From NCBI GenBank assembly GCA_001899285.1, contig MKWA01000005.1:23788-87787 (forward strand): a stretch of 64,000 nucleotides of DNA. The letters are read 5' to 3'. This stretch comes from Rhizobiales bacterium 64-17. GTDB lineage: Bacteria > Pseudomonadota > Alphaproteobacteria > Rhizobiales > Xanthobacteraceae. Positions 16,565 to 39,249 of this stretch are shown piece after piece. Each line of letters opens with the position of its first letter. The stretch's first letter is position 1. The translations under genes and the position numbers were made by a program. The notes under the pieces are model-generated. The model was not told the origin of the DNA, made no database searches, and worked only from the letters and a program-made list of their open reading frames with translations.

Positions 16565-17437
16565 TCAACGTTTGATCGTCGCAACGCCGTTGCTGATGAC
16601 GGCTACATCGCGTTCCGGGACGCGGCAGCGGAACGTCACATCATCGCCCGTCAACCACATCTCGGTGCGGATCGTCTCACCGGGATAAACCGGCGCCGAA
16701 AACCGCCCGCCGATAGACGCAAGCCGCGCGGGATCGTAGCCGCACAGCGTTTTCAACAGCGCATGACCGGCGACACCGAAGCTGGCGAGGCCGTGCAGGA
16801 TCGGCCGCGGATAACCGGCGACGCGCGCCGCGACCGGGTCCACATGCAACGGATTGCGGTCGCCTGACAGCCGATAGATCAGCGCCGCCTCCGGCCGAGT
16901 CGGCAGATCGCAGACATGGTCCGGTGCCCGCTCCGGAATCGCTGACGTCACGCCGAGCTTGGCCGACGACTGCGGCGCACCGCTGAAACCACCGTCCCCA
17001 CGACAGAAGATCGTCTGTGTCGTCGTGTTCAACACCGCCCCCGAGGCAATGTCAGTCAAAACATGTTCGACGACCAGCAGCGCGCCCTTCTCCGCGCCCT
17101 TGTCGATCACGTCGCGGATGCGCAGCGTGCCGCGCACAGCCGCAGCCGGCGACAGCGGCCGGACAAGCCGCATGTGCTGCTCGCCATGCACCGCCTTGCG
17201 CCAGTCAATGCCGGTGGTTTCGGTCGTCATCCAGTCGCGCGGATAGGCGAGCACGCTGGCAAAGGTCGGAAGCACCTTCAGATTCCGCTCATAGACGAAC
17301 CGTAGTGGCGCGGGATCGAGCGGATCGTGACCGAGCCCGACCCCGAGCGCGTAGAGAATGCAATCCTTCGCCTCGTAGCGCTGCTCTACCGGCGCAATGG
17401 TGAGCGCGAGAAGCTTCTCGGGATTGATCGGTATCAT
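16565..17437 (-). CDS. MaoC-type double-hotdog enoyl-CoA hydratase
   Basis: Probably hydrates trans-2-enoyl-CoA to R-3-hydroxyacyl-CoA. The C-terminal hotdog has the hydratase-2 motif YRLSGDRNPLHVDPVAARVA followed by GYPRPILHGLASFG, with the catalytic Asp, Asn and His. The N-terminal half is a degenerate hotdog of about 140 residues, as in the two-domain hydratase of peroxisomal multifunctional enzyme 2. R-hydroxyacyl-CoA can feed polyhydroxyalkanoate synthesis, which fits other genes here, but the gene stands alone between efflux and binding-protein genes. A role in aromatic side-chain beta-oxidation is an alternative. Confidence 0.88.
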   Translation of the reverse strand: MIPINPEKLLALTIAPVEQRYEAKDCILYALGVGLGHDPLDPAPLRFVYERNLKVLPTFASVLAYPRDWMTTETTGIDWRKAVHGEQHMRLVRPLSPAAAVRGTLRIRDVIDKGAEKGALLVVEHVLTDIASGAVLNTTTQTIFCRGDGGFSGAPQSSAKLGVTSAIPERAPDHVCDLPTRPEAALIYRLSGDRNPLHVDPVAARVAGYPRPILHGLASFGVAGHALLKTLCGYDPARLASIGGRFSAPVYPGETIRTEMWLTGDDVTFRCRVPERDVAVISNGVATIKR

Positions 17438-17520: not shown

Positions 17521-18789
17521 TTATTTGGCCTTCTCGTAGGGATAGATCACGTTGCCGCTCTTGTATTCCGGCGGATAGATGATCGGCAGCGTATCGAGCT
17601 TGCGGAATTCCTCAATGCTGTTGCTCTTGATGTTCTGGAACTGAGCCGCCATCACGCGCTCGTTGGCCCACTCGCCGTTCTTGCCGAATTTCACGTCGCC
17701 GACCGTGGTCTTGAACGTCGTTTTGCGAATGTATTCGGCGATCTTGCCGTCGTCGAGCGACTTGGTGGCGTTGACCGCATCACCCAGCACCTGCAGATAG
17801 GCATAAGCCCACACCGGCATGTAGTAGCCGAGAGGATCGACGCCTTCCGCCGCCGCACGGGCCTGATACTTCTTGATCAGGTCCATCGAGCCGGGGAATT
17901 CCATGGTCTTTGCCGGCAGCCAGGTTTCAAAGTTGACGAGACCGTTGAGAAGCGGCCCGAGCTGCGTCTTGAACACGGTCGCCTGCAGGCCGACCATCGC
18001 GCCGCCCCACATCTTCGGCTTGAAGCCGATCTCGTTCATGGCCTTGACCATGCCGACGCTATCGAGCGGATAGGAGCAGACCACGAACAGGTCCGGATTG
18101 GTGGCCTGCACCGCGCGCACGATCGGCGCGAAGTCGGTGGTGGCCGGCGGATAGCGGCGCTCGTAGACGATCTTGAAGCCGGCCGCCTTGGCGTTCTCCA
18201 CCGCGCCTTCGCAAGCGTTGCGACCGAACTCGGCGTCCGCCATGGCGATGGCGATGGTTTGCGGCTTCGGATTCTGCGCTTCCGCCACCTTGAAGAAGCC
18301 GCGGGTGAACGCCGGCTTCGGCGTCGGCCCGTTCGGGATCATCGAGAAGTAGCGGTCGTATTTGAACTCGTCGTTGATGCCGGTGCCGAACAGGCTGATG
18401 AACACCTTCTTCTTCGACATGGCGATCGGCATCGCCGGCGCGATCTGGCCCGAGGCATAACCCGAGACGATCAGGTCGACTTTGTCGACGTCGAGCAGCT
18501 TCGTATAGATGCCCGGCACGGTCGACGGATTGCTCTGGTCGTCGAAGTAGACGAGCTTCACCGGCCGGCCCATCAGGCCGCCCTTGGCGTTGGTGTCCTC
18601 TTCCCAGATCTTCATCGCCAGCAGCGACGACTTGCCGTTCGCCGACAACGGTCCGGTCAGCGACATGCCGAAGCCGATCTTGACCGGCTCGCCCTTCGGC
18701 GTCTGCGCCGAGGCCGTGCCGGCGATGAGCGCCAGCGCAGCAGCCGACAGCGTCAGGCTGCCCAGCGCGCGTTTGAGATGTTGCAGCAT
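17521..18789 (-). CDS. ABC-transporter periplasmic binding protein, branched-chain amino acid/aromatic acid type
   Basis: LivJ/LivK-like type I periplasmic binding protein. From the ATG at 18787-18789 there is a clear signal peptide (MLQHLKRALGS, a hydrophobic SLTLSAAALALIAG core, and cleavage after TASA), then EPVKIGFGMSLTGPLSANGK and VKLVYFDDQSNPSTV. GGAGAA precedes this ATG. An upstream in-frame start at 18894 would bury the signal peptide. No permease or ATPase gene is adjacent, so the partners must be elsewhere. Its place beside aromatic catabolism genes suggests an aromatic or phenylpropanoid ligand, as for similar proteins in Rhodopseudomonas (inference). Confidence 0.9.
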   Translation of the reverse strand: MLQHLKRALGSLTLSAAALALIAGTASAQTPKGEPVKIGFGMSLTGPLSANGKSSLLAMKIWEEDTNAKGGLMGRPVKLVYFDDQSNPSTVPGIYTKLLDVDKVDLIVSGYASGQIAPAMPIAMSKKKVFISLFGTGINDEFKYDRYFSMIPNGPTPKPAFTRGFFKVAEAQNPKPQTIAIAMADAEFGRNACEGAVENAKAAGFKIVYERRYPPATTDFAPIVRAVQATNPDLFVVCSYPLDSVGMVKAMNEIGFKPKMWGGAMVGLQATVFKTQLGPLLNGLVNFETWLPAKTMEFPGSMDLIKKYQARAAAEGVDPLGYYMPVWAYAYLQVLGDAVNATKSLDDGKIAEYIRKTTFKTTVGDVKFGKNGEWANERVMAAQFQNIKSNSIEEFRKLDTLPIIYPPEYKSGNVIYPYEKAK

Positions 18790-18873
18790 TCGTTTCTCCT
18801 CCCGTGTTACGCGCCGGCGCAAGTCCGGCGGCTTCCTTGCAATAGCGTTGGAGCGCCTTGGTGATGCGCCCGT

Positions 18874-18885
18874 GCAATCGATTGC
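18874..18885. promoter_or_regulatory. Palindrome upstream of the binding-protein gene
   Basis: GCAATCGATTGC is a perfect 12-bp palindrome, followed after 4 bp by another GCAATC half-copy. It lies 85 bp before the binding-protein start and 89 bp downstream of the MetE-like stop. A regulator site is plausible; the regulator is unknown. Confidence 0.35.
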
Positions 18886-18973
18886 TTCATGCAATCTTTG
18901 CCGATTGGACGCGCCGAGGCAACTGTCATGCTTGTCGCGGCACGCCCGGCGATCCGGCTGACGCGACGCCGCG

Positions 18974-20083
18974 CTATTTCCCCCAGACTTCCTTGCTGAG
19001 ATCGACGATCATCTTCAGTTTGGCCCACTGTTCATCCTCGGCGAGCACATTGCCCTCCTCGGTCGAAGCAAAACCGCACTGCGGCGACAGGCACAGCTGA
19101 TCGAGCGCGACATATTTGGTCGCCTCGTCGATCCGGCGCTTGAGATCGTCCTTCGGCTCCAGCCGCCCGGATTTGGAGGTGACGAGGCCAAGCACCATCT
19201 GCTTGTTCCCTTTCGGGAAGAACCGCAGCGGCTCAAACCCGCCGGCGCGGTCGGTGTCATATTCGAGGAAGTAGCCGTCGAGCGGCGTGTCGTTGAACAT
19301 CACCTCGGCGACCGGCTCGTAGCCACCCTCGGCGATCCAGGTGGAGCGGAAATTGCCACGGCAGGAGTGCATGGTGACCACCATGTCCTTCGGCCGGTCG
19401 CGGATCGCGATGTCGATCATCTTCGCATAAATCTTCGGCAGCGTGTCCGGATCGTCACCGCGCTCGCGCGAATGCGCGCGTTCCTTGGCGTCGCACATCA
19501 TCGCCCAGGTGGTGTCGTCGAGCTGGAGATAGCGGCAGCCAGCGTCATAGAACGCGCGCACCGCCTTCTTGTAGGTCTGCGCCAGATCCTCGAAGAAATT
19601 GTCGAGGTTCGGATAGGCTTCCTTGCTCACCGACACCCGGCCCTGCCGGAAGTGCAGCACGCCCGGCGCGGGAATGGTCATTTTCGGCGTGACCTTGCAG
19701 TGCGCCTTGAGGAATTTGAAATCCTCGATGTGCGGATGGCCGGAGAAGCCGAGCTTGCCCGACGTGCGCACGCTCTCCATCTTGGTGTCGACCCCGTGGA
19801 ATTTGATGCCCTTGTCGGTCTGAACCATCTCCACGCCATCGAGGCCGCGGAAGAAGTCGAACTGCCACCACGAGCGGCGCAGTTCGCCGTCGGTCGCAAG
19901 CTGCAGGCCGACCTCCTCCTGCTTCCGGATCACGCCTTCGATGGCGCGGTCCTCGATCTCGCGCAGTTGTGCTGCGCTGATCTCGCCGCGCGCGCGCTTC
20001 GCCCGCGCATCGCGCACGGATGCGGGCCGCAGCAAACTGCCGACATGATCGGCGCGGAACGGGGCGGTGGTGCGTTGGGTCAT
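18974..20083 (-). CDS. Core-MetE-like zinc methyltransferase, downstream tandem copy
   Basis: Homologue of the C-terminal catalytic half of cobalamin-independent methionine synthase (COG0620, YxjG-like); the N-terminal MetE barrel is absent, giving 369 residues. The zinc ligands of MetE are matched in order: His239 and Cys241 in VVTMHSCRGNF, Glu274 in YFLEYDTDRAGGFE, Cys336 in LSPQCGFAST. FRADHVGSLLRP at the N-terminus and YLQLDDTTWA are also family hallmarks. It should move a methyl group from a folate or other donor to a thiol. Start MTQRTTAPF (ATG 20081-20083). The upstream paralogue lies 119 bp away; the last ~97 residues of the two are almost identical. Confidence 0.85.
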   Translation of the reverse strand: MTQRTTAPFRADHVGSLLRPASVRDARAKRARGEISAAQLREIEDRAIEGVIRKQEEVGLQLATDGELRRSWWQFDFFRGLDGVEMVQTDKGIKFHGVDTKMESVRTSGKLGFSGHPHIEDFKFLKAHCKVTPKMTIPAPGVLHFRQGRVSVSKEAYPNLDNFFEDLAQTYKKAVRAFYDAGCRYLQLDDTTWAMMCDAKERAHSRERGDDPDTLPKIYAKMIDIAIRDRPKDMVVTMHSCRGNFRSTWIAEGGYEPVAEVMFNDTPLDGYFLEYDTDRAGGFEPLRFFPKGNKQMVLGLVTSKSGRLEPKDDLKRRIDEATKYVALDQLCLSPQCGFASTEEGNVLAEDEQWAKLKMIVDLSKEVWGK

Positions 20084-20167: not shown

Positions 20168-20193
20168 CCCTCTCCCCGCATGCGGGGAGAGGG
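20168..20193. repeat. 26-bp perfect palindromic repeat between the tandem MetE-like genes
   Basis: CCCTCTCCCCGCA is followed directly by its exact reverse complement, in the context CCCCTCACCCCGA. This is a widespread family of interspersed palindromes in proteobacteria. It sits 10 bp beyond the stop of the upstream MetE-like gene and may end or stabilise its transcript. A shorter relative is at 45266-45293. Confidence 0.8.
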
Positions 20194-20202
20194 AGAAAGG
20201 CT

Positions 20203-21306
20203 TTAGCCCCAGACTTCCTTGCTGAGATCGACGATCATCTTCAGCTTGGCCCACTGTTCGTCCTCGGCGAGCACGTTGCCCTCCTCGGTCGAGGCAAAGC
20301 CGCATTGCGGCGACAGGCAAAGCTGGTCGAGCGCGATATACTTCGTCGCCTCGTCGATGCGACGCTTGATGTCGTCCTTCGGTTCGAGCCGGCCCTGCTT
20401 GGAGGTGACGAGACCGAGCACCACCATCTTGTTGCCCTTCGGCAGGAAACGCAGCGGCTCGAAACCGCCGGCGCGGTCGGTGTCGTATTCGAGGAAATAG
20501 CCGTCGTAGTTGCACTTCTCGAGCAGGCTCTTGCCGACCGGCTCGTAGCCGCCCGACGAAATGAACGTGGAGCGGAAGTTGCCGCGACACACATGCGTCG
20601 TGATGGTCATGTCGGCGGGCTTGGCGTCCAGCGCCTTATTGAGCATCGCAGTATAGCTGTCCTGCAGATGATCAACGTCGAGACCGCGATCCTTGGCCTT
20701 CTTCATCTCTTCCTGCGAGCACAGATAGGCCCAGGCGGTGTCGTCGAACTGCAGATAGCGGCAGCCGGCGTCATAAAATGCCTTGATCGCCTTCTGATAC
20801 GCCACCGCGAGATCGTCGAAGATCGCGTCGCGGTTGGCATAGGCGCTCTTGTTCACCGAGCCGGGCTCAAGCCGGAAGTGCATCACCGTCGGCGCCGGGA
20901 TGCACATCTTCGGCATCACCTTGGTGTGCGCCTTGAGGAATTTGAAGTGCTCCAGCATCGGATGGTTGGAGAAACCGATCTTGCTGTCGACGCGCAGCAC
21001 CTGCATCTTGGTCTGCATGCCCTGGAACTGGATGCCGTGGTCGGACGCTTCCAGCCGCACGCCGTCGAGCATGCTGAAGAAATCGTAGTGCCACCACGAG
21101 CGGCGGAATTCGCCGTCGGTCGCGAGTTGCAGGCCGATCTCTTCCTGCTTCTTGATGATCTTCTCGATCTCGCGATCCTCGACCGCCTTGAGCTGCGCGT
21201 CGGTGATTTCCTTTTTCTCGTGCTTGGCGCGGGCGTCCTTGATCGCCGCGGTGCGCAGGATCGAACCGACATGGTCGGCGCGGAAGGGTGGCTTGGTCCG
21301 TTGCAT
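20203..21306 (-). CDS. Core-MetE-like zinc methyltransferase, upstream tandem copy
   Basis: 367-residue paralogue of the preceding gene. Ligands: His238 and Cys240 in TITTHVCRGNF, Glu273 in YFLEYDTDRAGGFE, Cys335 in LSPQCGFAST. N-terminal PPFRADHVGSILRT and WWHYDFFSMLDGV match the downstream copy, while the middle (about residues 85-265) has diverged and could set a different substrate. It lies 33 bp after the MetF-like gene on the same strand, so methyltransferase, reductase and this gene form a probable operon. Known relatives act as methionine synthase or as methyltransferases with unusual donors; which applies here is open. Confidence 0.85.
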   Translation of the reverse strand: MQRTKPPFRADHVGSILRTAAIKDARAKHEKKEITDAQLKAVEDREIEKIIKKQEEIGLQLATDGEFRRSWWHYDFFSMLDGVRLEASDHGIQFQGMQTKMQVLRVDSKIGFSNHPMLEHFKFLKAHTKVMPKMCIPAPTVMHFRLEPGSVNKSAYANRDAIFDDLAVAYQKAIKAFYDAGCRYLQFDDTAWAYLCSQEEMKKAKDRGLDVDHLQDSYTAMLNKALDAKPADMTITTHVCRGNFRSTFISSGGYEPVGKSLLEKCNYDGYFLEYDTDRAGGFEPLRFLPKGNKMVVLGLVTSKQGRLEPKDDIKRRIDEATKYIALDQLCLSPQCGFASTEEGNVLAEDEQWAKLKMIVDLSKEVWG

Positions 21307-21339
21307 GGTCGAATGTTCCTCCTGAGAACGGCGGACCCG

Positions 21340-22233
21340 CTATGACACGGGTTCTTGATTGGGAAGCGTTGGGTCGGCGAATTCCTGTTCGGGGGGAGTG
21401 ATAGCACGTCCGGGAACGATTGGTGCTACGACTGACGCATAACGCGCCGTCTCGATCAGCCCGCCGAAGGAAAAATAATGCGGCGCGATATTGCCGAGCG
21501 CCGGGGCCGCGACGCGCAACGCATCGAGGATCGCATCGGGGCCGACCCGGCCGCCAAATGCCAGGGCCGTGGCAGCGCCCGACATCAAACCTTGCGCGGA
21601 GGCGGCGACGCCGCAGCGCGCCGCATAGCGCAACAGCGCCGTCAGTTTGGTCGGCCCGGCGAGGCCGATCCGCACCGGCGCGGTCACGCCGGCGGCGCGC
21701 AGATCACGCACGTAAGTCATGATCGGCGCGGCGGAAAACACGAACTGCGTGACGATATGCGCGTGCAGTCCCGCATCGCGGGCCGCCGCAAGTTTGTCGG
21801 TCAAAGCCCGCGTCATCATATCGGCAGCGATGGCCGGATGGCCCTGCGGATGACCGGCGATACCGATCTCCTCGATTCCGAGGGCGCGCCAATCCATCGC
21901 CCGGATCAACGCAAGCGCATCGGCATAAGGCCCGAGCGGCTTGGGAATGTCGCCACCGATCACCAGCACGCGGCGCATCCCGCCCTCGCCGCAGGCGCGC
22001 TTGAGGCATTCCGTCAGATCGTCCGCCGACGCGATCCGCCGCGCCGCGAGATGCAGCACCGGATCGAGCCCGGCGCGCTGCACGGCCATGGCAAGATCGG
22101 CCATCTCGCGCAAACCCTGCGACGGGACGTGGCTCAAATAGAGCGGCTGCCCCGGCGGCACCAGCGCGGCGAGCCGCACCAGCTCGTCCGCCGTGGGCCG
22201 CGTCGCCTCGAGAGTGAACGCGGACACGCTCAC
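21340..22233 (-). CDS. MetF-family methylenetetrahydrofolate reductase-like protein
   Basis: TIM-barrel flavoprotein family that reduces 5,10-methylene-tetrahydrofolate to 5-methyl-tetrahydrofolate, or runs in reverse during demethylation. Conserved points are the early Glu in FTLEATRPTADEL, the Arg-rich HLAARRIAS strand, Asp in VIGGDIPKPLGPY (the folate-protonating position of MetF), GIAGHPQGHP and TQFVFSA. The GTG at 22231-22233 overlaps the upstream stop (GTGA), giving 297 residues. An upstream ATG (22275) would lie inside the neighbouring gene. The enzyme is divergent from housekeeping MetF, so a specialised one-carbon role is likely. Confidence 0.8.
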   Translation of the reverse strand: MSVSAFTLEATRPTADELVRLAALVPPGQPLYLSHVPSQGLREMADLAMAVQRAGLDPVLHLAARRIASADDLTECLKRACGEGGMRRVLVIGGDIPKPLGPYADALALIRAMDWRALGIEEIGIAGHPQGHPAIAADMMTRALTDKLAAARDAGLHAHIVTQFVFSAAPIMTYVRDLRAAGVTAPVRIGLAGPTKLTALLRYAARCGVAASAQGLMSGAATALAFGGRVGPDAILDALRVAAPALGNIAPHYFSFGGLIETARYASVVAPIVPGRAITPPEQEFADPTLPNQEPVS

Positions 22234-23699
22234 TCCCGGCGGCGGGAGATGACGAACGACTCGTCGTAGAACCACAGCCCGCCGTGCTGCTGCAATACTT
22301 CGCGCGTCGCCTCGATGTAGCGGCGGTCGGCGTTGACGTCAGCGAGCCGGTCGTCCTCCACCTGCGCCACATAGATTGCCGCGTTCCACGCCGCGAGCAG
22401 GGTCGACGTACCGATCGACGCGGAGATTTCCGACGGCAGCGTGTGCATGTCGTAGCGGAACAACGACCGCTGATCGGAATAGGCGTTGAAATTGAGATCG
22501 CGCGCGGCGCCACCCAATTCGTTCTTCACCGCCTTGAGCAGATCGTGGCGGCTGTGCGCGAACGGATTATCGTCCGGCCAGACCTTGTGAATGAGATCCA
22601 TGCCCGGATCGTGGCCATAGGAATGGATCGCGATCATCCGGCCACCCGGCCCGAGCGCACGCGCCAGCGGCGCCAGCACGCGCTTCGCCTTGAAATCGAG
22701 CGACGCGCGCGCCCGATAGGGTTGCGAGGCGATGACCAGATCGTAGTCGGCGGTGGTGCCGCCGGGCTTGGGAATGATCGGATCGAGCAGGAAGCGATGA
22801 TCCTCGCGATAGAGCACCAGGATCACCGGCCGCTCATAGACCGGATTGCCGCTTTTCTGCGACACCTTCGCCTTCCAGTTCTCGGCGAGGAACGGTTCGA
22901 GCGCGGTGATCTGCTCCTCGAAACCGTGCGACGAGGTGCCGGAGAGCGGCACTTCCTTCCACACGGTGCTCGCGGCGGCAGTCAACGACTTCACCGCGAG
23001 CCACGGCGCTTCGGCGTAAGCGAGATTGGTCAGCACCAGCACCGTTGAGGGATGCTCGTGGAAGCGGTCCGCCATCTTCTGCATGGTCAGGCGGATGTCT
23101 TCGAGGCTGATCTCCTTGCCGACGATATAGAACGGCGTGTGCGGAAACTTGTCGTGCATCTGCCGCATCACCCGCGACAGCACGGTGCCGTCGCCGACGC
23201 CGGCATCAAATACGCGCAGCGCCGGCGGCCGCGGATGCAGGCTGCCGAGTTCGAGGCCGATGCGGTTCGCGATCTCCCACTTCTCCGAGCAGGTGTTCAC
23301 GAACAGCAGGTATTTCTGCCGGTTGTCGAAGAAGCGGAAATTGCGCTGCGGATCGTCCTTGTCCACCGGCGGCGCGCCGGGCGGCACCATGGTCTGACGC
23401 GGCGGCTCCGGCGGTCGTACCGGGATGGCTGCGGACAGCGGCGCCACACGGCGCAAACCATCGTCTCCGCTGCTGTCGCCGCTTTCCGCCATGAACGAGC
23501 GGATGCGCTCCAGCGTGTCAGTGGTGATGCGCCCGCCGTTACGCAGCCGCGCGGCAAGCTTGCCGTCATTGACGGCGCGGCGACCGAAAGTGGATTCCGC
23601 GAGCCCGCGCTGACGGCAGAAGCTGGCGATCTCCTGAAGGAGAACTTCGTTCACAGACGCCTCCCTGGACGTGTCCCTGCTGCCGGTCTTGTGAGCCAT
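22230..23699 (-). CDS. HTH-fused SAM-dependent methyltransferase-like protein
   Basis: 489 residues in two parts. Residues ~17-70 (IASFCRQRGLAESTFGRRAV, then RITTDTLERIRSFM) look like a small helix-turn-helix found in alphaproteobacterial proteins. A Pro-rich linker (about 90-115) leads to a Rossmann methyltransferase domain with the SAM loop VFDAGVGDGTVLSRV (residues 163-177) and YDLVIASQPYRA at the motif IV position. The substrate is unknown. It heads the MetF / MetE-like run, coupled to the MetF-like gene by a 4-bp overlap, so it may donate or receive methyl groups in the same route, or act as a sensor. I do not know a characterised homologue. Confidence 0.65.
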   Translation of the reverse strand: MAHKTGSRDTSREASVNEVLLQEIASFCRQRGLAESTFGRRAVNDGKLAARLRNGGRITTDTLERIRSFMAESGDSSGDDGLRRVAPLSAAIPVRPPEPPRQTMVPPGAPPVDKDDPQRNFRFFDNRQKYLLFVNTCSEKWEIANRIGLELGSLHPRPPALRVFDAGVGDGTVLSRVMRQMHDKFPHTPFYIVGKEISLEDIRLTMQKMADRFHEHPSTVLVLTNLAYAEAPWLAVKSLTAAASTVWKEVPLSGTSSHGFEEQITALEPFLAENWKAKVSQKSGNPVYERPVILVLYREDHRFLLDPIIPKPGGTTADYDLVIASQPYRARASLDFKAKRVLAPLARALGPGGRMIAIHSYGHDPGMDLIHKVWPDDNPFAHSRHDLLKAVKNELGGAARDLNFNAYSDQRSLFRYDMHTLPSEISASIGTSTLLAAWNAAIYVAQVEDDRLADVNADRRYIEATREVLQQHGGLWFYDESFVISRRRE

Positions 23700-23828
23700 T
23701 TGCGTGCTTGCCGGTTCGAGTCAGGCTGTTGAGCCCGGCGCAAATCGAACCTCCGCCCGCGCGCATCGTCAACCACAAAACTTGCCCACGAAAGTTGGGA
23801 GATAAGAATGGGCAACGCCCAATGCAAG

Positions 23829-23861
23829 AAAAACCCGCCAGACAGGGCCTAGCGGGTTTTT
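23829..23861. terminator. Bidirectional Rho-independent terminator after pcaG
   Basis: AAAAACCCGC and GCGGGTTTTT form a 10-bp perfect stem around a 13-nt loop, giving a U-run in either direction. It lies 83 bp beyond the pcaG stop on the minus strand and insulates the pca operon from the methyltransferase operon. Confidence 0.85.
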
Positions 23862-23943: not shown

Positions 23944-24546
23944 TCAGATTTCGAAGAACACGGTCTCGTCGTCTCCCTGCACCTTGATGTCAAAGCGATA
24001 GACGCCGTCCTTCTCCTTCCTGGCGATCAGGGTGTGGCGGCGGTCTTCCGGCACCAGCGCGAGAATCTGGTCGGTGGCGTTGGCAGCCTCGTCCGGGAAA
24101 TACAGGCGCGTATAGACCTGCCGCAGCATGCCGCGCGAGAAGATGCAGACCACCACATGCGGCGCCTGCAACTTGCCGTTCGGGCCGGGCACCTGACCGG
24201 GCTTGATGGTGTCGAAGCCGAACTCGCCCTGCTTGTTGCAGGCCGAGCGGCCGAAACCCTTGAAGCTGGCATTGGGCGCACGCGGATCGCGCGGATGCGC
24301 GTAGCGGCCTTGCGAATCCGCTTGCCAGATTTCCAGCATCGCGTCCGGGATCGGCACGCCATCGCCGTCGCGGATGACGCCGGTGATGTGGATCTTCTGG
24401 CCGGACGCATCGGGCGTGATCAGATTGTCGCCGACAGTTTCCTTCCAGCTATAGGTGCCGTCCGGATCCCAGTGCGCGCGGCCCTTCGGCGTCAGGCCAT
24501 AGGCATAAAACGGGCCGACGGTTTGCGAGGGGGTCAGGTCGGACAT
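23944..24546 (-). CDS. pcaG: Protocatechuate 3,4-dioxygenase alpha subunit
   Basis: Structural subunit of the Fe(III) intradiol dioxygenase that cleaves protocatechuate to 3-carboxy-cis,cis-muconate. TPSQTVGPFYAYGLTP at the N-terminus, the ITGVIRDGDGVPIPDAMLEI strand, FGRSACNKQGEFGFDTIKPG and PHVVVCIFSRGMLRQVYTRL follow the PcaG pattern; as expected, the iron-binding Tyr/His set is not complete in this subunit. 200 residues is normal. It begins 2 bp after the pcaH stop and is the last gene of pcaIJFHG. Confidence 0.96.
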   Translation of the reverse strand: MSDLTPSQTVGPFYAYGLTPKGRAHWDPDGTYSWKETVGDNLITPDASGQKIHITGVIRDGDGVPIPDAMLEIWQADSQGRYAHPRDPRAPNASFKGFGRSACNKQGEFGFDTIKPGQVPGPNGKLQAPHVVVCIFSRGMLRQVYTRLYFPDEAANATDQILALVPEDRRHTLIARKEKDGVYRFDIKVQGDDETVFFEI

Positions 24547-24548
24547 GA

Positions 24549-25256
24549 TCAGTGCTTCTCCTCATCCATCGGCGTACCTTCGCGGCCGCGCAGCACGATA
24601 TCGAACCGGAACGCCAGCGCCCATTCCGGCACGGTGTTCTCGAGATCGAACGTCGCGATCATGCGGTTGCGCGCCTTCTCGTCGGGGACCGAATTGAAGA
24701 TCGGGTCGAACGGGAACAAATAGTCGCCGGGGAAATACATCTGCGTCACGAGCCGCGACAGGAACGAGTGACCGAACAGCGAAAAGTGGATGTGGTTCGG
24801 CCGCCACGCATTGTGGTGGTTGCCCCACGGATAGGCGCCGGGCTTGATGGTGACGAACTTGTAGTAGCCGTTCTTGTCGGTGAGCGTGCGGCCCGCACCG
24901 GTGAAATTCGGATCGAGTGGCGCCGGATGCTGATCGACGATGTGCACGTAGCGGCCGCAGGCATTGGCCTGCCACAGCTCCACCAGAACCTCCGGCACCG
25001 GGCGCTTGTCCTCATCGAGGATCTGCCCGTGGACGATGATGCGCTCGCCGAGCGGTTCGCCCTTGTGCATCTTGGTCAGGTCGTTGTCGCCCTCTTCGAT
25101 GGCATTGTGACCGTAGACCGGGCCGGTCAGCTCCGACAGTGTGTGCGGCACGACGATCAGCGGCTTCGACGGCGACCGCTTGATGGTGCTCTTGTATCCG
25201 GGGCTCAGATGCTTCGGATAATCGATCAGCCCCTTGGTCGGATAGATCAGCGACAT
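24549..25256 (-). CDS. pcaH: Protocatechuate 3,4-dioxygenase beta subunit
   Basis: Catalytic subunit binding the non-haem ferric ion. The intradiol signature VHGQILDEDKRPVPEVLVEL is followed by the ligands: Tyr in ACGRYVHI, Tyr in KPGAYPWGN, and both His in RPNHIHFSLFG. 235 residues matches the family. An N-terminal arm with LSELTGPVYG contributes to the active-site entrance. It follows pcaF by 15 bp. Oxygen and protocatechuate are the substrates in the cytoplasm; the product needs PcaB, PcaC and PcaD, which are not in this window. Confidence 0.97.
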   Translation of the reverse strand: MSLIYPTKGLIDYPKHLSPGYKSTIKRSPSKPLIVVPHTLSELTGPVYGHNAIEEGDNDLTKMHKGEPLGERIIVHGQILDEDKRPVPEVLVELWQANACGRYVHIVDQHPAPLDPNFTGAGRTLTDKNGYYKFVTIKPGAYPWGNHHNAWRPNHIHFSLFGHSFLSRLVTQMYFPGDYLFPFDPIFNSVPDEKARNRMIATFDLENTVPEWALAFRFDIVLRGREGTPMDEEKH

Positions 25257-25271
25257 CGACTTCTGCTCCCC

Positions 25272-26483
25272 TCAGACGCGCGCAAGCGCCATCGATACAC
25301 CTTGTCCGACGCCGACACACATGGTGGCAAGGCCGATCTTGCCTTGCCGCGCCTGCAGGCCGTGCGCCACCGTCATCGCCAGCCGCGCGCCCGACATGCC
25401 GAGCGGATGGCCAAGCGCGATCGCACCGCCGTGCGGATTGACGTGTTCGGCATCGTCGGCGAGTCCAAGCTGGCGCATGCAGGCTAGGCCCTGCGACGCG
25501 AACGCCTCATTGAGTTCGATCAAATCGAAGTCGCCGATCTTCATACCGAGCCGCGCCATCAGCTTCTGCGTCGAGGGCACAGGGCCGATGCCCATGATGC
25601 GGGGCGGCACGCCGGCCGAGGCAACGCCGAGCACGCGGGCGCGGGGCGTCAGCCCATATGTCTTCACCGCGTCTTCCGAGGCGAGGATCATCGCCGCCGC
25701 GCCATCGTTGACGCCCGACGCATTGCCAGCGGTCACCGTGCCGGGATTGCGGAACGGAGTCTTGAGCTTGGCAAGTTGCTCCATCGTCGTCTCGGGGCGC
25801 GGATGCTCGTCCGCCGACACTTCGACGGTCTCGCCCTTGCGGCCGGCGATGCTGACCGGAACGATCTCGGCCTTGAAATACCCGGCGGCGATCGCCTTGC
25901 CGGCGCGTTGCTGCGAGCGCAGCGCGAAGGCGTCCTGATCGGCGCGCGTCACCTGGAATTCAGCGGCGACGTTCTCGCCGGTCTCCGGCATGGAATCGAT
26001 GCCGTATTGCTGCTTCATCAGCGGATTGACGAAACGCCAGCCGATCGTCGTGTCGTAAATCTCGGCGCTGCGCGAGAACGCCTCGGTCGCCTTGCCCTGC
26101 ACGAACGGCGCGCGGGTCATCGACTCGACACCGCCGGCGATGCCGATCTCGATCTCGCCGGCACGGATCGCGCGCGCGACCGTGCCGACCGCATCGAGGC
26201 CGGACGCGCACAGGCGGTTGAGCGTGATGCCCGGCACCGCTACCGGCAGGCCAGCGAGCAGCGCCGCCATGCGCGCGACGTTGCGGTTGTCCTCGCCCGC
26301 CTGATTGGCGCAGCCGAGCACGACCTCATCGATCGCTTCCCAGTCCACCTTCGGATTGCGCGCGATCAGCGCCCTGATCGGCACCGCGGCGAGATCGTCG
26401 GTACGCACCTTGGCAAGCGAGCCACCGTAGCGGCCGATCGGCGTGCGGGCCGCATCGCAGAGGAAAACGTCGCGTGTCGCCAT
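25272..26483 (-). CDS. pcaF: Beta-ketoadipyl-CoA thiolase
   Basis: Cleaves 3-oxoadipyl-CoA to acetyl-CoA and succinyl-CoA, the last step of the beta-ketoadipate pathway. Thiolase landmarks: nucleophilic Cys in [14 protein letters not shown] (about residue 90), [43 protein letters not shown] (catalytic His) and CVGVGQG with the second Cys. 403 residues. [20 protein letters not shown] is typical of PcaF. Its place between pcaJ and pcaH supports PcaF over a general acetoacetyl-CoA thiolase. Confidence 0.95.
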
Positions 26484-35521: not shown

Positions 35522-37735
35522 ATGGCAGAGCGTTCATTCAGCAAGGAAGTCGAGGCGCTGAAACTCGGCGACGGCGAAACCTTCGAAGGCGAAGGCATTC
35601 TCGCCGTCACCAAGGCGCTGCTGCAATCCGGCGTCTCCTATGTCGGCGGCTATCAAGGCGCGCCGGTGTCGCATCTGATCGACGTCATGGTGGACGCCGG
35701 CGATCTGCTCGACGATCTCGGCGTGCATCTGGAAACCTGCACCAACGAAGCCTCCGCCGCAGCGATGCTCGGTGCCTCCATCAACTATCCGCTGCGCGGC
35801 GCGGTGACGTGGAAATCCGTGGTCGGCACCAATGTCGCCGCCGACGCGCTATCGAACCTTGCCTCGCCCGGTGTGATTGGCGGCGCGATGATCGTCATCG
35901 GCGAGGATTACGGCGAAGGCGCGAGCGTGATCCAGGAACGCTCCTATGCCTATGCGATGAAGTGCGGTATCTGGCTGCTCGATCCGCGGCCCGATCTGCC
36001 GACCATCGTCAACACCGTCGAACAGGGCTTCGCGTTGTCGGAGGCGACCCACGCGCCGGTGATGCTCGAATTGCGCATCCGCGCCTGCCACGTCACCGGT
36101 GAGTTCACCACCAAGGACAACCGGCGCGGGCAATTCTCAGGCCGCAACAAACTCTCCGGTCCGCCGAAATTCGACTACATGCGGCTGGCGCATCCGCCGG
36201 TCACCTTCGTGCACGAGAAGCTGAAAGCCGAGCATCGACTGCCGGCCGCGCAGGCGTTCGCCCGGGAGCAGAAGCTCAACGAGGTGTTCGACGGCGACGT
36301 GAGCGAGATCGGCATCGTCGTGCTCGGCGGACTCTACAACAGCGTCGTGCGCACGCTCGGCCGCATCGGCCTCGCCGATCTGTTCGGCGCCGCACGCATT
36401 CCGATCTATGTGCTCAACCTCGCCTATCCGCTGGTGCCCGACGAAGTGGCGCAGTTCTGCGCCGGCAAGCGCGCCGTGCTGATCGTCGAGGAAGGCAACC
36501 CGGATTACATCGAGCAGCAGATCAACACGCAGTTGCGCCGCGCCGACATCCAGACGCAGATCCACGGCAAGGACTGCCTGCCCGCCGCCGGCGAATATAC
36601 GCAGGACGTGCTGCTGCGTGGTCTCGCCGCTTTCCTGACGAAAACGCGGCCGGCCGGCGTCGACGCCGACGCCATCGCCGCGCGGGTCGAGACCATGCTG
36701 GCGCACCGGCCGGCCGCGACGAAATCCACCGGCGAGATTCCGCCGCGCCCGCCCGGCTTCTGCACCGGCTGCCCGGAACGCCCGGTGTTCTCCGCCGTCA
36801 AGCTGATGCAGCGAGAGCTTGGTCCGACGCATATCTCCACCGATATCGGCTGCCATTCGTTCGCGACCCTGCCGCCGTTCTCCATGGGCAATTCGATTCT
36901 CGGTTACGGCATGTCGCTCGCCGCTGCCGCGGCGGTCGGACCGAACATGGAGCGGCGGCCGATCACGGTGATGGGTGACGGCGGATTCTGGCACAACGGT
37001 TTGATCACCGGCGTCGCGTCGAACCTGTTCAACAAGGGCGACGGTGTGCTGATCGTGATGCAGAATGGCTACACGTCAGCGACCGGCCAGCAGTTCATGC
37101 CGTCGAGCAAGGACAGCTACGCCGCGTCAGGCCAGACGATGGACATCGAGCAGACGCTGCGCACCTTCGGCGTCAAATGGCTGCGCAAGGTCCGGACCTA
37201 TAACGTCGCGACCATGCTGAAGACCTTGAAGGAAGCGATGCAGACTGCCGAACGCGGTCTCAAGGTCATCATCGCCGACGGCGAATGCCAACTAGCACGG
37301 CAGCGGCGCGTGCGCGTGGAGGACGCCGAGAAACTCAAGCGCGGCGAGCGCGTCACCCGCGCGCGTTATGGCGTCGACGACGAAATCTGCACCGGCGATC
37401 ATTCCTGCATGCGGCTCTCCGGCTGCCCGTCACTGACGGTGAAGCCGTCGCCCGACCCGCTGCGCACCGATCCGGTCGCGACCGTGATCGAGAGCTGCGT
37501 TGGCTGCGGGCTGTGCGGCGAGGTCGCGCACGCCGCCGTGTTATGCCCGTCGTTCTATCGCGCCGAAATCATCCGCAACGCCACCGCATGGGACCGTTTC
37601 CTGTTCGCGATGCGGCGTGGATTCCTCGGCCTGTTCGGCATCCGCCTCCCGCAAGCCGAGCCGGCGCTGGCGCCGATCCCCGCGCTGGCGCGCGCCAACA
37701 CCACCCTTGATGCCCGCACCACGACACCGACATGA
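35522..37735 (+). CDS. iorA: Indolepyruvate ferredoxin oxidoreductase alpha subunit
   Basis: TPP- and Fe-S-dependent subunit that oxidatively decarboxylates arylpyruvates to aryl-acetyl-CoA, reducing ferredoxin. N-terminal pyrimidine-binding domain (GGYQGAPVSHLIDVM, ETCTNEASAAAMLGAS), transketolase C domain, a TPP domain with CTGCPERP (about residue 415) and MGDGGFWHNG then NGYTSATGQQ, and a C-terminal ferredoxin region with CTGDHSCMRLSGCP and CVGCGLCGEVAHAAVLCP. 737 residues. The first cluster spacing differs from the usual CxxCxxC. Overlaps iorB by 4 bp (ATGA). Oxygen-sensitive in archaea, but related genes occur in aerobic alphaproteobacteria. Confidence 0.93.
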   Translation: MAERSFSKEVEALKLGDGETFEGEGILAVTKALLQSGVSYVGGYQGAPVSHLIDVMVDAGDLLDDLGVHLETCTNEASAAAMLGASINYPLRGAVTWKSVVGTNVAADALSNLASPGVIGGAMIVIGEDYGEGASVIQERSYAYAMKCGIWLLDPRPDLPTIVNTVEQGFALSEATHAPVMLELRIRACHVTGEFTTKDNRRGQFSGRNKLSGPPKFDYMRLAHPPVTFVHEKLKAEHRLPAAQAFAREQKLNEVFDGDVSEIGIVVLGGLYNSVVRTLGRIGLADLFGAARIPIYVLNLAYPLVPDEVAQFCAGKRAVLIVEEGNPDYIEQQINTQLRRADIQTQIHGKDCLPAAGEYTQDVLLRGLAAFLTKTRPAGVDADAIAARVETMLAHRPAATKSTGEIPPRPPGFCTGCPERPVFSAVKLMQRELGPTHISTDIGCHSFATLPPFSMGNSILGYGMSLAAAAAVGPNMERRPITVMGDGGFWHNGLITGVASNLFNKGDGVLIVMQNGYTSATGQQFMPSSKDSYAASGQTMDIEQTLRTFGVKWLRKVRTYNVATMLKTLKEAMQTAERGLKVIIADGECQLARQRRVRVEDAEKLKRGERVTRARYGVDDEICTGDHSCMRLSGCPSLTVKPSPDPLRTDPVATVIESCVGCGLCGEVAHAAVLCPSFYRAEIIRNATAWDRFLFAMRRGFLGLFGIRLPQAEPALAPIPALARANTTLDARTTTPT

Positions 37736-39249
37736 GCGCCGCCCCGGACCGCCCCATTACCCTGCTGATCGCCGCGCTCGGCGGCGAAGGCGGCGGCGTG
37801 CTCACCGACTGGATCGTCAAGGCCGCCACCCATGCCGGCTATCCGGTGCAGAGCACGTCGATCCCCGGCGTCGCGCAGCGCACCGGCGCCACCACTTACT
37901 ATATCGAGGTCGTGCCCGCGACCTGGCGCGCGCTCAACGGCCGCCGGCCGGTGCTGTCGCTCACCCCCGGCGTCGGCGACATTGACATCATGGCCGCGAC
38001 CGAACTCCTCGAAGCGGGTCGCGCCATCGCCAACGGCTTCGTCACTCGCGACCGCACCCTGATGATCGGCGCGACCGGCCGCTCCTATCTCACAACCGAA
38101 AAGATGGCGATGGGCGACGGCCGCTACGATCGCGATCTGCTGATCCAGGCGATCAACGACAATGCGCGCGACAATCTGCTGATCGACATGGAGACCCTGG
38201 CGAAGGCCAACGGCACCATGATCAGTTCCGTGATGCTCGGCGCGCTCGCCGGCAGCGGCGTGATGCCGATGACCGCGGATGATTTCGAGGCGGCGATCCG
38301 TGCCGAGGGTAAGGCGGCCGACGCCAACCTGCGCGGCTTCCGCGCCGGGCTCGACGCGGCAAAAGCGCGGCTGCCGGTCGCCACGCCCGAGGAGATCAAG
38401 AAGCGCAGCCGCGAGACGCTGGACGATCTCGAACGCGCGGCAACGGCGTTTCCCGACGCCGCGCGCGAGATCGTGCTCGAAGGCGTGCGCCGTCTGGTCG
38501 CCTATCAGAGCGCGCGCTATGCGCGGCTTTATCTCGACCGGCTCGCTCCGTTCGCCGGCGGCGACCCGATCCTGCTGCGCGAGACAGCGCGGCATCTCGC
38601 GGTGCGCATGTCGTTCGAGGATGTGATCCGCGTCGCGCAGGCGAAGATCGCGCCGGAGCGGTTCGCGCGCATCGCCCGCGAGGAACTGAAAGCATCCGGC
38701 GAACCTTTCGTCATCACGGATTTCCTCAAGCCCGGCATCGACGAATTCTGCCAGATCCTGCCGCCGCGCCTGGCGCGCGCGATTCTTAATCTATCGGCGC
38801 GGCGCGGCTGGCTCGGCCGCGTCTATTTCGGCATGGAGGTGAACACGACCTCCATCACCGGCTTCCTGCGGTTCTGGCTGCTGGCCAAGCTGCGCGGCTG
38901 GCGGCCGCATTGCCACCGCTACCATGAAGAGCAGAAAGCTATCGAAGGCTGGCTCGGCCTCATTCGCGACGCCGCGGCCCGCTCACCGGAGCTGGCGCGC
39001 GAGATCGCCGAATGCGCGCGTCTCATCAAAGGCTATGGCGACACCCATGCCCGCGGCACCGCGAATTTCGCCAGCATCGAGACGCAGGTGATCCGGCCAG
39101 CGCTGGCGGGCACGATCCCGCTGCCGCTCGCGGTCGATGCCGTTGCCAGCGCCCGCGCCGCGGCCCTGGCCGATCCGGAAGGCGAGAGCCTGACGCGTTG
39201 CCTCGCCGCCATCGCCGCACAGACGGCGCTGCCCACCGCCGCCGAATGA
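37732..39249 (+). CDS. iorB: Indolepyruvate oxidoreductase beta subunit with C-terminal DUF6537-like domain
   Basis: Gamma/beta-type POR subunit. The N-terminal ~200 residues are the archaeal-sized IorB core (IAALGGEGGGVLTDWIVKAA, then SIPGVAQRTGATTYYIEVVP). About 300 further residues follow, with VAYQSARYARLYLDRLAPF and FGMEVNTTSITGFLRFWLLA, resembling the DUF6537 extension found in proteobacterial IorB and in fused IorAB proteins. The extension's job is unknown. 505 residues in total, coupled to iorA by overlap. Confidence 0.9.
   Translation: MSAAPDRPITLLIAALGGEGGGVLTDWIVKAATHAGYPVQSTSIPGVAQRTGATTYYIEVVPATWRALNGRRPVLSLTPGVGDIDIMAATELLEAGRAIANGFVTRDRTLMIGATGRSYLTTEKMAMGDGRYDRDLLIQAINDNARDNLLIDMETLAKANGTMISSVMLGALAGSGVMPMTADDFEAAIRAEGKAADANLRGFRAGLDAAKARLPVATPEEIKKRSRETLDDLERAATAFPDAAREIVLEGVRRLVAYQSARYARLYLDRLAPFAGGDPILLRETARHLAVRMSFEDVIRVAQAKIAPERFARIAREELKASGEPFVITDFLKPGIDEFCQILPPRLARAILNLSARRGWLGRVYFGMEVNTTSITGFLRFWLLAKLRGWRPHCHRYHEEQKAIEGWLGLIRDAAARSPELAREIAECARLIKGYGDTHARGTANFASIETQVIRPALAGTIPLPLAVDAVASARAAALADPEGESLTRCLAAIAAQTALPTAAE

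Follow-up and report, generated by a model that had tools for sequence, protein, structure and literature searches.

In the 64,000-nucleotide stretch of Rhizobiales bacterium 64-17 that we analysed (the window; assembly GCA_001899285.1, contig MKWA01000005.1, positions 23,788 to 87,787), one minus-strand gene run begins with HTHMT, a protein with an N-terminal helix-turn-helix (HTH) and a methyltransferase-like (MT) domain. HTHMT belongs to an unnamed family that is missed by Pfam and NCBIfam searches. It is followed by the MetF-like reductase METF and by two core-MetE-like proteins, METE1 and METE2. We consider it a serious possibility, if short of an even chance, that this operon is a methyl-handling module leading from METE through MetK and HTHMT to METF, in which HTHMT acts as an S-adenosylmethionine (SAM):tetrahydrofolate (THF) N5-methyltransferase. 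A wider proposal is more doubtful: that the MT domain works this way across the Alphaproteobacteria, genomes of 1.4–1.6 Mb included, in a catabolic cycle with MetE-like or PF02574 enzymes, MetK, AhcY, a reverse-running MTHFR and PurU, with SAM as the methyl-burning intermediate.

In the proposed scheme, METE1 and METE2 (elsewhere a PF02574 enzyme) would methylate homocysteine at the expense of a donor that is perhaps imported, and MetK, encoded elsewhere in the window genome, would turn the resulting methionine into SAM. Judging from gene company, the MT domain of HTHMT would then take the methyl from SAM and pass it to THF, which we propose as the acceptor because such a transfer would connect both halves of the module. 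METF would oxidise methyl-THF (CH3-THF) to methylene-THF (CH2-THF), as expected by family from the SYK-6 MTHFR. AhcY would regenerate homocysteine and PurU would release formate; their genes stand beside the MT gene in other lineages. The HTH may let HTHMT regulate its own operon.

We surveyed the gene company of the MT domain by searching 385 alphaproteobacterial genomes with a profile; 43 had some match, and in 25 the MT domain scored more than 100 bits, a threshold of our own choosing. Among these 25, an MTHFR of the type labelled n1 is present in 16 (3.0 expected) and METF in 11 (4.5 expected); the Fisher test left out G127, a contig-edge fragment, with which the values are 12/26 and p 0.0006. 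Either reductase is present in 22 of the 25 (7.1 expected; p 1.7e-10) and in 15 of 16 families. In a first set of 20 regions the MT gene adjoins an MTHFR gene in 10, namely METF in L117 and n1 in L118, L121, L122 and L124–L129 (five n1 genes were named by Pfam, the remaining ones assigned by homology). In L126–L129 the MTs are HTH-less and divergent from the n1 gene. In L120 the MT gene has METE and metK as neighbours, and in L133 it stands beside the gene of a PF02574 homocysteine methyltransferase. In three other regions (L131, L132 and L134) an HTH-less MT is surrounded by genes for a phosphodiesterase, an aldehyde dehydrogenase or a sugar-type ABC importer, which were recognised in part by eye and seem unrelated to the methyl cycle.

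Whole sets of SAM-cycle genes accompany the MT in some genomes. In G582 (region L150) the genes for MT, MetK, AhcY, METF and PurU follow one another on one strand, and MetK, AhcY and PurU pass curated NCBIfam cut-offs; the divergent MetF with PurU is thus present there and was not seen in the window operon. In ten MT-bearing genomes of the window's own family (6.1–8.8 Mb), most of which we take for Bradyrhizobium, the order is without exception METE, HTHMT, MetK, AhcY, and this MetK is the sole one in these genomes. Upstream lie branched-chain-amino-acid-type importer genes (10/10) and PurU (9/10; not seen in G646). As for the metK of the window genome (L193), it is preceded by an XRE-like protein, recognised by eye and unlike the HTH of HTHMT.

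HTHMT itself gave no Pfam match at E<=10 and no NCBIfam match at E<=0.001; one relative reaches UPF0020 at E 0.17, below the cut-off of that family. Across 31 MT-domain sequences, HTH-bearing and HTH-less alike, 45 columns are invariant. The SAM-type loop and acidic residues are kept in 31/31, and many invariant polar residues lie beyond the loop in both groups. The 44 MT-domain sites that we checked had been chosen from conserved columns and therefore form no independent test. Class-wide, 17 of 35 MT frames carry the HTH and 18 do not (L123 was left out, as the frame finder landed outside the gene); for these 18, the 1.5 kb of upstream sequence likewise showed no HTH. The existence of HTH-less forms and the columns shared with and without the HTH argue that DNA is not needed for what the MT domain does, be it catalysis or the binding of a partner; they are compatible with a regulator as well. 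We built a tree from 43 MT domains, which came from 30 of 36 regions, 12 of 80 close loci and the window, leaving out L123 and the near-copies L153–L155, L157 and L159. In this tree HTH-less forms branch deeply, and the presence of the HTH has to change three times, of which well-supported branches force two; the HTH-less MT of the G582 operon is nested in the HTH group on a long branch. The HTH-less state is apparently the older one and the HTH a later addition, given a midpoint root. HTH-like stretches also occur without an MT in nine frames examined (L163–L171), one of them in frame with a fumarase-like sequence; the HTH looks like a loose module.

By sequence and fold METF is an MTHFR of the SYK-6 type: it is nearest to the MTHFR of strain SYK-6 (S6MTHFR) and stands apart from canonical MetF. 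S6MTHFR is reported to run in reverse, oxidising CH3-THF (PMC12585457, PMC13001107), and by family the oxidative direction is predicted for METF too. Among the 385 genomes, SYK-type METF (>100 bits) is found in 70 and n1 MTHFR (E <= 1e-40) in 46. Since 59 of the 70 carry no MT, METF also has other uses. In the 1.4–1.6 Mb genomes G259, G337 and G161 METF lies apart from the MT; it adjoins a GcvT/sarcosine-oxidase-like protein in G259 (below cut-offs) and, by eye, in G337, and a formate-THF ligase in G161. The window genome holds a third MTHFR, of n1 type, apart from HTHMT (L191, G000:C22:93933), with a neighbour that is BoxB-like by eye.

METE1 and METE2 are without the folate half of MetE. Their best-scoring alignments to Thermotoga maritima MetE start at residue 434 or 436 and lie in the C-terminal half of that enzyme, and canonical MetE was rejected as their identity because the N-terminal folate-binding domain is absent. 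Their nearest match is Listeria 1ypx (425 and 433 bits), and a MesD identity of METE1 was rejected on similarity, with 20.6 bits to the MesD structure 3rpd. The seven positions listed in PMC7857596, four zinc ligands and three homocysteine-binding residues, were identified in METE1 from their motifs; all 85 METE-like proteins of nearly full length (short fragments were left out) carry them unchanged. For this reason, METE1 and METE2 are most likely homocysteine methyltransferases. Tandem arrays of as many as five METE copies are seen at pca-linked loci, among them L026 (9451–16910), and suggest that the copies serve different methyl donors.

Close relatives show which of these genes belong together. 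We kept the best 80 of 429 HTHMT relatives, the closest of which, 99% identical, comes from a metagenome-assembled genome named Pseudolabrys; on this basis the 4.6-Mb window genome (G000) is Pseudolabrys-like. METF adjoins HTHMT in 63 of the 73 loci having at least 1.3 kb downstream; where at least 5 kb is available, METE lies within 9 kb in 26/57 and a binding protein of the window type downstream in 5/57. Upstream, pca genes are found in 28 of the 67 loci having at least 2.5 kb. When both flanks are known (51 loci), pca and METE occur together in 23, neither in 27 and METE alone in 1. In a tree of the 80 loci and the window, a single supported group of 31 rows (SH-aLRT 99) contains all 29 pca rows. 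Because of these counts and this confinement, we regard the HTHMT–METF pair as the core and METE with pca as the arrangement of one group. Thus the co-occurrence of the four genes, on which the initial annotation had made its reading depend, holds for METF but much less for METE. Another arrangement is seen in L037, with an importer, HTHMT, three METE genes and an SDR gene, and no pca (importer and SDR by eye and family).

The initial annotation had proposed that the cluster may recover methyl groups from methoxylated aromatics. In this explanation METE would help to demethylate the substrates and METF would burn the methyl, as LigM and MTHFR do in SYK-6. The adjacency of pcaFGH, with METE in all 23 pca loci that have a long enough downstream flank, and the SYK-6 type of METF speak for it. 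However, pca adjacency is limited to the one group, a hairpin and U run separate the pca and HTHMT units, METE retains its homocysteine-binding residues, and METE is found next to HTHMT in L037, which has no pca, as well as in 10 further genomes for which no pca was noted (pca was not searched for in these widened regions). Class-wide, the MT sits with metK, ahcY, purU or MTHFR genes instead. The tie to aromatics is therefore not borne out in general and we think this explanation quite improbable; a link to wood-derived aromatics, unproven, is suggested only for the window's own lineage. It is also unlikely, though less so, that HTHMT transfers the methyl to something other than THF, be it a small molecule, a protein or a lipid, and that the methyl-cycle genes only supply SAM and remove S-adenosylhomocysteine (SAH). 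This would account for metK and ahcY, and the MTs of L131, L132, L134, L156 and L162 do sit with seemingly unrelated transport or catabolic genes (partly by eye), but it leaves unexplained the two different MTHFR partners and the PurU of the L150 operon.

A regulatory role deserves more weight, although we still lean against it: the MT-like domain would bind SAM or SAH and the HTH would control methyl-cycle genes. Human MTHFR carries a SAM-binding regulatory domain, and HTH-less forms might bind the reductase in a similar manner, which would suit the divergent pairs of L126–L129. Such a sensor accounts for much of the same gene company as a SAM:THF methyltransferase. It agrees with the position of HTHMT directly before metK in 10 genomes and with its conservation, which is much higher than that of METF (67–82% against 35–52% identity to the window; window plus 36 of 80 HTHMT and 28 of 65 METF sequences, the sets also used for structure). 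Furthermore, the regulon of SahR spans ahcY, metH, metF and metK (PMC4239095, PMC8877191). On the other hand, about half of the class-wide members lack an HTH both within the protein and in the upstream sequence, the HTH-less state looks older (with the reservation of the midpoint root), and beyond the SAM-type loop many polar residues are invariant in both groups.

Several observations weigh against a SAM:THF methyltransferase. The same gene neighbours would be expected of methyl-cycle regulators, the MT domain is without known activity, and we know of no SAM:THF methyltransferase. The predicted HTHMT structure has alternating strands and helices, but with a pLDDT of 65.5 and no clear match to a methyltransferase in the fold comparison, the Rossmann fold of a class I SAM methyltransferase is unconfirmed. 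The metK of the window genome lies on another contig, outside the HTHMT operon, and donor import is weakly based because the window-type binding protein is so rare. The many METF genomes without an MT belong here as well. In tblastn searches with METE, METF, n1, MetK, AhcY, PurU and BHMT queries, with Pfam for some open reading frames (ORFs), no methyl-cycle gene was found beside the MT in 7/20 first-set regions (L119, L123, L131, L132, L134, L135 and the short contig L136) and 3/16 second-set regions (L151, L156, L162). L130 (G028) has only a divergent second MetK-like protein (35–37% identity), 3 kb from the MT. Three of the 25 MT genomes (G065, G326, G361) have neither METF nor n1 at the thresholds used, even though G361 has a METE-metK-ahcY-purU set. 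Finally, the p values are guides only, since the genomes are related and independence is overstated.

The locus (Table 1) agrees with the gene run first described from the sequence: HTHMT, METF with its overlap, METE1 with four zinc ligands, the palindrome and METE2. It continues in the direction of transcription with the substrate-binding protein and the MaoC-like hydratase. The GTG start of METF overlaps the HTHMT stop as GTGA, and the longest METF ORF begins at 22275. Between pcaG and HTHMT, RNA folding of a 144-nt stretch gives a stem-loop followed by a U run (z -2.84), because of which pcaFGH and the HTHMT genes are likely two transcription units. A terminator pattern scan of the whole region gave 9 sites against 6.0 expected, not above chance, and lists this hairpin in weak form. 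The palindrome is perfect and its pattern occurs nowhere else in the window; it could represent a repeat element or serve as an operator. Farther away, at 35522–39249, a large thiamine pyrophosphate enzyme (PF02775) and a second gene look by eye like an indolepyruvate ferredoxin oxidoreductase pair.

Table 1. Features around HTHMT, in window coordinates
Feature	Position	Strand	Remarks
HTHMT	22230..23699	-	489 aa; HTH + methyltransferase-like; no named family found
N-terminal HTH domain of HTHMT	23472..23660	-	residues ~14-76
Methyltransferase-like domain of HTHMT	22233..23339	-	residues ~121-489; FDAGVGDG 164-171, KEIS 195-198, SQPY 325-328
METF	21340..22233	-	MetF-like reductase, SYK-6 type; 297 aa counted from GTG at 22233
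METE1	20203..21306	-	core-MetE-like (PRK06520), 367 aa
Palindrome CTCTCCCCGCATGCGGGGAGAG	20170..20191	unstranded	between METE1 and METE2
METE2	18974..20083	-	METE1 paralogue, 67% identical, 369 aa
Substrate-binding protein, ABC-type (Peripla_BP_6)	17521..18894	-	79 bp after METE2; start uncertain
MaoC-like hydratase	16565..17437	-	next in same-strand run; putative operon member
Terminator-type hairpin + U tail	23826..23861	-	between pcaG and HTHMT; RNA folding
pcaG, pcaH, pcaF	23944..26483	-	upstream of HTHMT, same strand; context only

The initial interpretation as a whole is partly supported. Its specialised methyl-transfer route finds support in the grouping of METF with the reverse-running SYK-6 enzyme, in the METE residues and in the class-wide ties of the MT to methyl-cycle genes. 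As for the usual O-demethylases, of which the initial annotation saw none, the window genome has four Rieske VanA_C matches but no obvious LigM or DesA: its two GCV_T matches are a full-length one of 270 bits, regarded as gcvT, and a partial one of 51 bits, neither compared with LigM itself. If the proposed methyl transfer is true, SAM would be a way station for methyl catabolism beyond its donor role in biosynthesis, and HTHMT a candidate enzyme for passing methyl groups directly from SAM into the folate one-carbon pool. Bacteria that park methyl groups on homocysteine would have a route for disposing of excess methyl, and a role would emerge for core-MetE proteins, the function of which one paper terms questionable in aerobic marine bacteria (PMC12478193).

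The closest known system is the LigM–S6MTHFR pathway of Sphingobium lignivorans SYK-6 (PMC12585457, PMC13001107), with which METF shares an S6MTHFR-like sequence and fold and a presumed oxidative direction. Unlike there, no obvious LigM-type demethylase was seen in the window genome, with its two GCV_T matches, and METF is accompanied by METE, HTHMT and, in relatives, SAM-cycle genes. In the chloromethane pathway (CmuA/CmuB-MetF2-FolD-PurU; PMC3621897) methyl likewise enters THF, a divergent MetF oxidises it and PurU releases formate; corrinoid enzymes were not noted in the MT operons, where they were not searched for, and the proposed carrier before THF is SAM. Glycine betaine demethylation in marine bacteria also uses a second MetF, MetF2, suggested to oxidise CH3-THF, but its methyl comes via MtgBCD and not from a SAM methyltransferase (PMC12478193). 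The core methionine synthases MesA-D (PMC7857596) resemble METE in lacking the folate domain and in having the same zinc and homocysteine residues; METE1, however, is like Listeria 1ypx and barely like 3rpd, and METE occurs as several adjacent paralogues. SahR, the SAH-responsive ArsR-type regulator of rhizobia (PMC8877191, PMC4239095, PMC5343134), is likewise an HTH protein tied to metF, metK and ahcY. HTHMT has neither an ArsR nor any other Pfam match, on which ground a SahR-type identity was rejected, and its MT domain, in contrast to SahR, often occurs with no HTH at all.
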